NCBI GenBank assembly: GCA_022823775.1
Contig: JAJEHI010000135.1
Coordinates: 1 to 64,000 of the forward strand
Length of the DNA: 64,000 bases
Source: Defluviicoccus sp.
Lineage (GTDB): Bacteria; Pseudomonadota; Alphaproteobacteria; MPNO01
Direction of reading: 5' to 3'
Of this stretch, positions 38,279 through 40,683 are shown piece by piece. Below the pieces are notes generated by a model. That model searched no databases. It had not been told where the DNA came from and saw only the letters and a list, made by a program, of their open reading frames with translations. Position 1 is the first letter of the stretch; each line of letters opens with the position of its first letter. A program made the translations under genes and the position numbers.

Positions 38279-38812
38279 ATGGCCGGGGCCACGCCCCCGC
38301 CCGACGGGTACAGACCCTGCGCCGGGATCGTCCTGTTCAACCGTAACGGCCGGGTCTTCGCGGGTCGCCGGAGCGATACCCGGCCCCCCGCCTGGCAATT
38401 TCCGCAGGGCGGGATCCGCCGGGACGAGGCGCCGGAGGCGGCCGCCCTCAGGGAGCTGGCCGAGGAGACCGGCACCGACCGGGCCGTCATCGTCCAGGCC
38501 ATGGAGGGCTGGCTGACCTACGATCTGCCGGGCGATCTGCGGGCGCGGATGTGGGGCGGGCGCTACCGCGGGCAGGCGCAGAAATGGTTTCTCGCGGGCT
38601 TCACCGGCGAAGACGGGGATATCGATATCCGGGCTGGCGACCCGCCGGAATTCGACGCCTGGCGATGGATGGAGCTGTCCGAGGTGGCCGCGCAGATCGT
38701 GCCGTTCAAGCGCGAGGTCTATGGCGCGCTCGTCGCCGCGTTCTCGGACCGCATCGTACGCGAAACCGCCTCGGGATCTAATGCGCCCCGCGCGCCAGCA
38801 TCGACATCCTGA
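38279..38812 (+). CDS. rppH: RNA pyrophosphohydrolase (Nudix)
   Basis: Removes pyrophosphate from the 5' end of mRNAs, starting RNase E-dependent decay. The Nudix box spans residues 44-66 and fits the consensus (Gly44, Glu50, Arg58-Glu59, Glu62-Glu63). YRPCAGIVLFN at the start and WQFPQGGI are typical of RppH. The 177-residue protein has a slightly long C-terminus, whose last 35 bases overlap the 3' end of the convergent ferritin-like gene. Confidence 0.92.
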   Translation: MAGATPPPDGYRPCAGIVLFNRNGRVFAGRRSDTRPPAWQFPQGGIRRDEAPEAAALRELAEETGTDRAVIVQAMEGWLTYDLPGDLRARMWGGRYRGQAQKWFLAGFTGEDGDIDIRAGDPPEFDAWRWMELSEVAAQIVPFKREVYGALVAAFSDRIVRETASGSNAPRAPASTS

Positions 38813-39593
38813 ACTTCAAGAGCACCCAGAACACGGCCGCCGCGGGCTTCGAAATCCAGCGCCGCGTTTTGATCCCGACGGCGTGGCACACCATGTCCAC
38901 GCTGCGCTCGAGAATCCCCGGCGTGCAGCACGACAGCGCGCGATTGCCGTAGGCGCCGCTGTTGCGCCGCCTGTCATAGGGCCGGTCGCCTCCGTTCGCG
39001 GCGTAATAGGCATAGGCGAGCTCGTCGTCCTCGGTCTCCCCGATTCGCGACACCGCCACGCGGAAACGGCTCCAGAATCCCAGCGCCTCGCGGTCCAGAT
39101 AGCGCTTCATGTGCGTGTGAAAGAGACAGTAGTGGGCGAACTCATCCTCCGCGATCCGGCGGCAGATCTCCTTCAGTACCGGCTCGTCGGTCGCCTCCGC
39201 GAGCGCGCTGTAATAGGTGTTCGTCCCGGTCTCGACCATGCAGCGCGCGACCAATTCCCCGCTGCGGCTGCCGCGTACGGAATCGCTCGCGCCCAGCGGG
39301 AGCCTGAAGCCCTCGCGGAAACGCGCGAAACTGCTCTCGAAGTCGAACTCCGGGTCGGCCATCCTGGCCCAGCGGCCGAGCGCGACGCCGTGCTGGACCT
39401 CTTCCTCGGCCCAGCCGTCGACCGCGACCTTCATACGCGGATCGTCGTGAAAGACGCCGTTCAGATAAGCCCGATAGTCCTCGGCGTTGTACTCGACAAG
39501 GCTTGCCGCCTTGACGATCGGAACAATGTCCGGATCGACCCGGCCCGGGTCGAATTCATCCCAAGGAATATCGGCAAGGGTCCATCCTGCCAT
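38778..39593 (-). CDS. Ferritin-like di-iron protein
   Basis: 271-residue helical protein with a complete carboxylate-bridged di-iron set: Glu34, Glu65-x-x-His68 (EEEVQH), Glu121 (MVETGTNTYY) and Glu151-x-x-His154 (EDEFAHY). This two-ExxH arrangement is that of desaturases, ribonucleotide reductase R2 and related oxidases rather than of storage ferritins. The specific reaction is unknown. Expression is leftward from a TTGACA-bearing upstream region with AGGAGG before the ATG. The C-terminus (about 240-265) is hydrophobic and may contact the membrane. Confidence 0.75.
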   Translation of the reverse strand: MAGWTLADIPWDEFDPGRVDPDIVPIVKAASLVEYNAEDYRAYLNGVFHDDPRMKVAVDGWAEEEVQHGVALGRWARMADPEFDFESSFARFREGFRLPLGASDSVRGSRSGELVARCMVETGTNTYYSALAEATDEPVLKEICRRIAEDEFAHYCLFHTHMKRYLDREALGFWSRFRVAVSRIGETEDDELAYAYYAANGGDRPYDRRRNSGAYGNRALSCCTPGILERSVDMVCHAVGIKTRRWISKPAAAVFWVLLKFRMSMLARGAH

Positions 39594-39672: not shown

Positions 39673-39837
39673 GCCGACAGCCCGGCATCGACCGGTTCCG
39701 CGGGCCTGGCGGCGGTTCGAAAGGGGCTTACAAAGATGAGTTGACGGGCCGGAGACCCGCGGCATTTCTTCCGTCATGCCCAGAATAAGTCCACTGCTGT
39801 CCGGTTTAGACTCAGATGCCGATTCCGCCCCCACGTC

Positions 39838-39873
39838 GTCATGGCCGGACTCGTTCCGGGGGCCAGCCATGAC
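39838..39873. repeat. REP-like palindrome, GTCATGGC/GCCATGAC type
   Basis: Outer arms GTCATGGC and GCCATGAC are perfect, with an inner stem CCGGA-CTCGT-TCCGG. Confidence 0.65.
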
Positions 39874-39925
39874 GATACGGGGCGGTGGCGGAGGTCGCCC
39901 GCACCGCCCGCGCGTGTCCCAGGCT

Positions 39926-40012
39926 GTCGCCCCGGCCTTGTGCCGGGGTCCAGAGCAACCGGGCCGACGCCCGGGCCTGTGATCCTGGACCCCGGCGCAA
40001 GGCCGGGGCGAC
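39926..40012. repeat. 28-bp inverted repeat pair (27 of 28 matching)
   Basis: Arms 39926-39953 and 39985-40012 are reverse complements apart from one base, with a 31-base loop. Each arm is itself a hairpin of CCCCGGC and GCCGGGG type. The transcript on either strand would form a very stable structure. Confidence 0.8.
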
Positions 40013-40090
40013 AAGGGGGGGCCGAGCGGCAGTGGGGAACGACAACGGGAAGTGCGGGCGTGCCGCGACCCGTGTCCCGATCCGGTCGAT

Positions 40091-40131
40091 GGGTCGGAAA
40101 GCCGCCTGAACCAACGGCTTGAACCCGACCC
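40091..40131. repeat. Stem-loop GGGTCG...CGACCC
   Basis: Outer arms GGGTCG and CGACCC with an inner AGCCG/CGGCT stem; next to the right arm of the long inverted repeat. Confidence 0.5.
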
Positions 40132-40269
40132 AGCCTGCTAAACCGGACGGCAGTGGAACAAGTCCGGGCACGACGGTGCGGGATGGCGCGCTCGAGCCTT
40201 CTTTGTAGGCCCGGTTCGAAAGAAAGCGAACTTGTCGAAGGAAGATGGCGCGCGGGTGCGGTCGTGCCA

Positions 40270-40683
40270 TCAGGCGCGGGTACTTGCGATCGCCGTGCGC
40301 AGCGCCTCGGCGGCGGCCAGCCGTTTGCGGGCTTCCCGGGCGGCCCCTTCATCGGCGGCGCGCTCGAGCGCTTCCCCCGCCTCGGCGACGCGGCGGTCGG
40401 CGTCCGCCTCGTCCGCGTCCTCGAGGGGAACCGCGTCTTCCGCCAGAACGGTGCAGCGCTCCGGCTGGACTTCCGCGACCCCGCCCGCGACGAACACGCG
40501 CCGGTCCACCACGCCGTCCCGCCAGATCGATATGACGCCCGGCCGCACCGTGGAAATCATCGGCGCGTGACCCGGCAGAACGCCGAAATCGCCCTCGCTG
40601 CCGGGCACGACGACCATCTCGACAGGGACGGAAAGCAGCAACCTTTCGGGCGAGACCAGCTCGAATTCGACGGTGTCGGCCAT
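40270..40683 (-). CDS. atpC: F1 ATP synthase epsilon subunit
   Basis: Central-stalk subunit, also inhibitory in many bacteria. MADTVEFELVSPERLL opens the beta-sandwich domain and GDFGVLPGHAPMI (about 31-43) is the conserved loop. 137 residues with a C-terminal helical pair rich in Ala/Glu. Last gene of the atpHAGDC order, 30 bases after atpD, followed by the palindrome region. Confidence 0.94.
   Translation of the reverse strand: MADTVEFELVSPERLLLSVPVEMVVVPGSEGDFGVLPGHAPMISTVRPGVISIWRDGVVDRRVFVAGGVAEVQPERCTVLAEDAVPLEDADEADADRRVAEAGEALERAADEGAAREARKRLAAAEALRTAIASTRA

Follow-up and report, generated by a model that had tools for sequence, protein, structure and literature searches.

The spacer between atpC and a predicted di-iron gene in Defluviicoccus sp. 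(contig JAJEHI010000135.1) contains a block of nested palindromes, which raises the question of what this block is, how it came to lie there and whether it has any role beside an ATP synthase gene. The window that we have analysed is a stretch of 64,000 nucleotides, and in the initial annotation the block was suggested to be either a REP cluster or a non-autonomous mobile element. The two descriptions apply together rather than as alternatives, the block being a REP-carrying miniature element inside a REP. Specifically, it is very probably a miniature inverted-repeat transposable element (MITE) of an ISRel1/ISRm22-like insertion sequence (IS) of the IS4 family, inserted into the loop between the arms of a CGTC-type REP and carrying REP cargo that may seed landing sites.

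The Locus

Both genes are on the minus strand and are separated by 676 bp, with the block beginning 94 bp past the atpC stop codon, on the atpC strand. The features are as follows.

38778-39593, minus: predicted ferritin-like/di-iron gene, downstream neighbour of the block; weak family matches only
39713-39770, plus: leader-like module before the host REP; a similar stretch lies ahead of other REPs
39714-39723: left copy of GGTTCGAAAG, exact direct repeat read from the sequence, possible outer duplication
39771-39782: host REP palindrome, left arm CCGTCATGCCCA; 10/12 complementary to the right arm
39783-39791: target duplication (9 bp), left copy GAATAAGTC
39791-39809, plus: left terminal inverted repeat CCACTGCTGTCCGGTTTAG, by terminus match
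39792-40155: predicted 364-bp miniature element, from paired termini, flanking duplication and a terminus as in the complete IS at locus L065
39829-39882: shrunken type B REP pair (CGTCATGGCCGG...) in the element
39925-40013: intact inverted type A REP pair (TGTCGCCCCGGCCTTGTGCCGGGGTCCA...) in the element; arms of 29 nt with 1 mismatch, and a detector score of 27
40073-40137: the element's right shoulder, which has a stem of its own; kept at L095 and in Defluviicoccus elements
40138-40156, minus: right terminal inverted repeat CCACTGCCGTCCGGTTTAG, by terminus match
40156-40164: target duplication (9 bp), right copy GAACAAGTC; 1 mismatch to the left copy
40165-40176: host REP palindrome, right arm
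40213-40222: right copy of GGTTCGAAAG, exact direct repeat read from the sequence
40270-40683, minus: atpC (Pfam PF02823), upstream neighbour of the block, same strand

The family matches of the di-iron gene product are weak (encapsulin-associated ferritin-like, E 1.5e-7, under the cut-off), and no PDB relative better than E 0.005 was found for it. The ferritin-like gene adjoins atpC in many Alphaproteobacteria, with 15 of the 23 fetched loci that have the gene also containing atpC.

Outside the outer inverted repeat of the block lies the exact 10-bp direct repeat GGTTCGAAAG, which the initial annotation had missed. Removal of one copy together with the enclosed DNA leaves 177 bp, near the spacer length of the congeners, and the stretch so bounded resembles an outer insertion; the resemblance is only suggestive, since REPs elsewhere are also preceded by a leader module of this kind. 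An inverted GGGC(T/C)TACAAAGA is found just inside the GGTTCGAAAG copies (39714-39736, 40200-40222). A direct-repeat scan across the whole window returned just scattered similarities of coding DNA.

Structure of the Block

The outer inverted repeat spans 39771-39809 and 40138-40176 (39 nt, 82% complementary; 37 bp had been reported) and is made up of two components that had not been separated before, namely palindrome arms of 12 nt and the element end of 19 nt, which a 7-nt loop separates. All three inner palindromes described at the outset are present. In the strongest, 39925-39953/39985-40013, the arms are 29 nt with 1 mismatch, where 28-bp arms with a single difference had been given; the next, 39829-39848/39863-39882, has arms of 20 nt that are 80% complementary, and the third corresponds to a stem at ∼40091-40132 in the right end, seen in the predicted folds. 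Computational folding, which had been suggested as a check, gave a block much more stable than shuffles on the strands tested: -269 kcal/mol for the minus strand as RNA (z -12.7) and z -9.9 for the plus strand as DNA, with 0 of 100 shuffles equally stable in either case. Four open reading frames cross the block and none has a Pfam match, in keeping with the claim that no protein is encoded. An Rfam search of the block gave matches only far under gathering scores, neither an intrinsic terminator nor a sigma-70 promoter was found within it, and a search for plasmid-borne copies gave no match.

The terminal inverted repeats match at 18 of 19 positions. We have written the ends as 5'-CA...TG-3', as in IS4Sa; with CC...GG ends the element would be 39791-40156. 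Properties by which a MITE is recognized are found, as the element is short, non-coding and multicopy, is bounded by terminal inverted repeats and a target-site duplication, and has an autonomous relative with the same ends. The IS4-type terminal repeats, the gene-less content, the 9-bp duplication and the position in a REP loop can be read directly from the sequence, while the tie of the window element to an IS runs via its terminus and its lineage siblings, the window's own shoulders being without a direct match to IS ends.

Copies in the Genome and a Complete IS with the Same Ends

When the block is compared with its own genome, 185 pieces match at E ≤10, a number in which overlapping and palindromic self-matches are counted, and the similarity is modular. 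The terminus CCACTGCTGTCCGGTTTAG has 64 matches at ≤3 mismatches in the 4.8 Mb of the genome, whereas the reversed pattern has 1, and in 41 own loci read with their flanks there are 56 termini at ≤4 mismatches. Absence of further copies, named in the initial annotation as part of what would refute it, does not hold, as many copies exist. Intact type B pairs of ∼110 bp are found at the sibling loci L004, L005 and L095, the right shoulder and end are 92% identical to L095 over 86 bp, and the left end is almost identical at L128, a locus from a Defluviicoccus MAG.

A complete IS of 1261 bp lies between one pair of the same termini at L065 (783-2043). Its transposase of 380 aa matches DDE_Tnp_1 and DUF4372 in Pfam and the IS4 family in NCBIfam (NF033592, E 6.5e-73), with D122, D184 and E289 as read from the sequence and the YREK motif YKQRWQIELFFKWIK at 282. 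The spacing D(60-110)D(100-150)E, the YREK motif, the 5'-CA end (CACTGCTGT) and direct repeats in the range of 8-10 bp agree with subgroup IS4Sa, for which Table 1 of PMC2266710 gives 5'-CA------T ends and 8-10 bp direct repeats; the IS is a candidate member of IS4Sa. It is found in the context GTGGATGGCCGG-AACAAGT-[IS]-AACAAGT-CCGGCCATGACG, which puts it into a REP-like palindrome at the loop.

Insertion Geometry

A GTDB scan for exact termini yielded at least 114 stretches. From the matches listed we took 30 paired elements of less than 1.5 kb which, with 7 from the own genome, make a sample of 37, of which 36 have both flanks (L148 is without a right flank, and the own pairs L067 and L084, which came from another terminus query, are outside the 37). 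In 23 of 36 elements the 7-mers that adjoin the two termini repeat each other directly with ≤1 mismatch, compared with 221 of 1997 random pairings; they are inverted in 6 and neither in 7. G is present at -8 in all 36 elements and C at +8 in 35, so that with 5'-CA ends the duplication becomes 9 bp of the form G-N7-C, exact in 18/36. Outside the duplication palindromic arms (≥6/8 complementary) flank 29 of 36 elements; 15 bases further out the count falls to 0/36. Since the palindromes differ between genera, we infer that the transposase reads symmetry and not one sequence.

At the six loci with inverted 7-mers (L066, L068, L092, L118, L199, L205) it is as if the element had taken the place of the interior of a REP pair; such elements look as if they were recombination hybrids, or as if each end had attacked another loop. 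Some Tepidamorphus elements (L133, L271-L286; 282-287 bp) lie outside REPs, with duplications such as TCCGGAT and CACAGAC, and REP loops are therefore preferred but not obligatory. Two identical 143-bp elements with identical flanks are found 285 bp apart in Rhizobium bangladeshense (L106, 4225-4367 and 4653-4795). By eye they have no REP pair, and they could be a minimal element that was tandemly duplicated or an assembly effect. Of the 114 listed terminus stretches, 12 (L117, L123, L129, L130, L141, L143, L153 and L214 among them) carry no Alphaproteobacteria class label, 5 being labelled only 'Pseudomonadota'; those outside the phylum lack a palindrome beside the terminus and look fortuitous.

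REP Pairs as Cargo

Elements of the own genome hold one or two inverted REP pairs (one in the 283 bp of L095, two in the 483 bp of L092), and the 364-bp window element holds one intact pair and one shrunken pair. In order to score such cargo we used a detector that looks for two stem-loops, mutual inverted copies of one another and 10-130 nt apart, in elements of 200-700 bp, with the two identical Rhizobium elements excluded from the scoring. Cargo was detected in 20 of 27 elements (5/6 own and 15/21 others among the scan matches listed); in the controls it was detected in 0 of 270 shuffles and in 1 of 211 segments drawn at random from these loci. Grouped by the sequence between terminus and cargo, the detector-positive elements fall into seven lineages: Defluviicoccus and like (the window's included), Tepidamorphus, Caenispirillum, Marinicaulis, Kiloniellaceae and two unplaced Alphaproteobacteria. 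The clustering also includes L126, L131 and L208, which the detector missed but in which REP-like pairs are visible by eye; the seven lineages rest on the detector-positive members. Six shoulders, all within the 14-member lineage of the window, match IS ends at E ≤1e-3. One Tepidamorphus genome has a multicopy element of 282-287 bp with both termini in 14 of the 16 copies fetched (from 24 matches listed in that genome), and its cargo palindromes are unlike those that serve as insertion sites. Lengths of 276-293 bp recur across unrelated lineages.

CGTC REPs as described by Di Nocera et al. (2013; PMC3733652) have a CGTC tag, a 9-bp stem starting with AT, a 5-nt loop and a CCA tail, the published criteria also admitting a TGTC or CCTC tag, a stem of 8-9 bp and a loop of 4-5 nt. 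The palindromes of the element show the tag, stem, loop and tail, repeated, in the form CGTC-ATGCCCGGA-CTTGT-TCCGGGCAT-CCA. The host palindrome of the window is CGTC-type on both sides and lacks the combination of one CGTC end with one CCA end; its form suggests the collapse or recombination of a REP pair. The type B stem-loop has 95 genome matches at ≤3 mismatches (control, 0). A hand count over these 95 palindromes finds a G-C swap at one stem position on both sides in 26 and on one side in 6, so that the stems are kept, although two sub-types or gene conversion would yield an equal count.

Occurrence in Congeners and Beyond

The di-iron gene is present in three of four congeners (89-95% identity; the fourth has no match to the gene). 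In these three it follows atpC with a spacer of ∼160-185 bp in which neither a REP nor a terminus was found. A stretch beside the di-iron start that contains TTGACA is conserved in all the congener spacers compared. Termini are nonetheless common in the four congeners, with 13 to 109 matches. The element family is therefore widespread in the genus, and the window copy is not shared with these three congeners; the block is probably a neutral insertion. Further out termini are patchy, with some in 16 of 61 genomes, own included. Of 385 genomes of the class just 1, the own, has the exact pair of termini at 266-296 bp, and class-wide presence of that form is rejected.

Alternative Explanations

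The reading that comes closest in plausibility, only slightly short of evenly balanced in our judgment, accepts the element as described and holds that its REP cargo is neither selected nor useful, having accumulated as mosaic debris through crowded spacers and inverted-repeat recombination. Inverted flanking 7-mers in 6/36 elements, the nested and chimeric clusters that contigs 66 and 73 contain, an abundance of free REP pairs and the hybrid direct repeats of ISRm22, which are put down to recombination in PMC1525189, would all be accounted for in this way. However, cargo elements form multicopy families with intact ends (14/16 in Tepidamorphus), and cargo is found in 7 unrelated lineages. The free pairs bear on the question of spread as well: 17 of 20 that were fetched have no terminus-like sequence at ≤6 mismatches and 3 of 20 do and, since free pairs without ends are common, the miniature elements are not the sole route by which REPs spread.

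Retention of the block because its hairpins stabilize or end the atp operon mRNA is unlikely. The position on the atpC strand just past the stop codon and the very stable fold are what one would expect of such a role, as is the observation that REPs lie mainly downstream of genes in many genomes (PMC3733652), but the block has no T-run terminator, the same element family occurs at many other loci, and absence of the block from the spacer of three congeners argues against a conserved role at atp. Still less credible, indeed highly improbable, is that the block is a REP cluster (BIME/REPIN) mobilized by a RAYT transposase, for which the initial annotation had proposed a search. Head-head REP pairs, in the block and free in the genome, are what suggest it. 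Yet Y1_Tnp was detected in 0 of 5 genomes of the genus (draft assemblies) compared with 5 of 14 control genomes, the tags are CGTC/TGTC and not GTAG, and the block is bounded by IS4-type termini and by a duplication. With no Y1_Tnp in the five genus genomes, RAYT is rejected as the mover.

A Possible Self-Seeding Cycle

Returning to the miniature element of an IS4-family IS, we envisage that an IS of the same family would supply the transposase in trans and so move the element, and that this transposase may sense the symmetry of a REP palindrome, with G-N7-C at its axis, above any one sequence. The element would bring its inverted REP pairs along as cargo. As each insertion would then use up one REP and bring in two or more, new landing sites would be seeded. 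Where it now lies the block, if transcribed, would add strong hairpins to the spacer that separates atpC from the di-iron gene.

A second IS of the genome has used such cargo sites. It has a similar terminus (CCACTGGTGTCCGG...), and the assembly contains four of its ends of each kind. All of them lie close to contig edges, a position to be expected of near-identical multicopy DNA, and one end has the same sequence over 120 bp in its four copies. A search for its transposase gene found none in the assembly, which holds only the ends of this IS at contig edges. Seven of the eight junctions (contigs 60, 118, 122, 123 start, 131, 137 and 186) cut a REP inside a miniature element, with an element terminus 70-316 bp away, and the eighth (contig 123 end) cuts a REP pair near which no such terminus was seen. 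As background, 40 of 95 type B palindromes have a terminus no more than 400 bp away and, because eight junctions amount to about four insertions, we claim use of these sites and not a preference for them, which is not significant.

That REP-targeting IS4 miniature elements repeatedly took up CGTC-REP pairs, each insertion supplying targets, is a tentative proposal that we regard as possible but still short of probable. If it is true, CGTC REPs, which are without a known dedicated transposase, gain a vehicle, and a site-specific transposon would be spreading its own target. The link of such elements to a nameable transposase family makes the question of what mobilizes CGTC REPs testable. For annotation, it would explain many alphaproteobacterial palindrome blocks without a regulatory story.

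Relation to Known Systems

REPINs are inverted REP pairs that occur as miniature repeats. The inverted pairs are alike here, but there is no RAYT and no GTAG tag, and IS4-type termini lie outside the pair. The nearest named transposases are those of ISRel1 (Rhizobium etli) and ISRm16 (Sinorhizobium meliloti), 47% and 42% identical to that of L065; both are complete elements, unlike the gene-less element of the window. ISRel1 ends in TTAAACCGGACAGCAGTGC, with only one end of the fetched copy matched, and the terminus of ISRm16 differs (GCAGGGCTGTCCGGGGAAA). A further comparison is with a target of IS1111, which we take to belong to the IS110 group. In Coxiella burnetii the miniature element QMITE2 has a REP that is the target of IS1111 (PMC5896051; review, PMC10969869), so that it resembles our element in being a miniature element with a REP serving as an IS target; there the REP is of the GTAG type and the targeting IS is not described as the parent of QMITE2, while here the termini are those of the targeting IS family.

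As reported by Di Nocera et al. (PMC3733652), alphaproteobacterial CGTC REPs occur mainly as head-head dimers without a known mover, the mobilizer being left open; in the present case the pairs travel in a miniature element and the host REP is CGTC-tagged on both sides. In the open-access literature searched, no miniature element was found that belongs to a REP-targeting IS and also carries REP pairs, and for this reason the cargo is taken as new. Thus the new part looks to be the REP-pair cargo, insertion of IS4 elements at REP axes having already been published. Indeed, all 10 of 10 copies of ISRm22 (S. meliloti; IS4 family, subgroup IS4Sa) are described as inserted into REPs at the axis of the palindrome, and hybrid direct repeats flank some of them (PMC1525189; subgroup, PMC2266710). 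By that published description the window element is like ISRm22 in being an IS4-family element in a REP, and unlike ISRm22, which is a complete IS with reported 6-bp repeats, in being gene-less, in having a 9-bp duplication and in carrying REP pairs.
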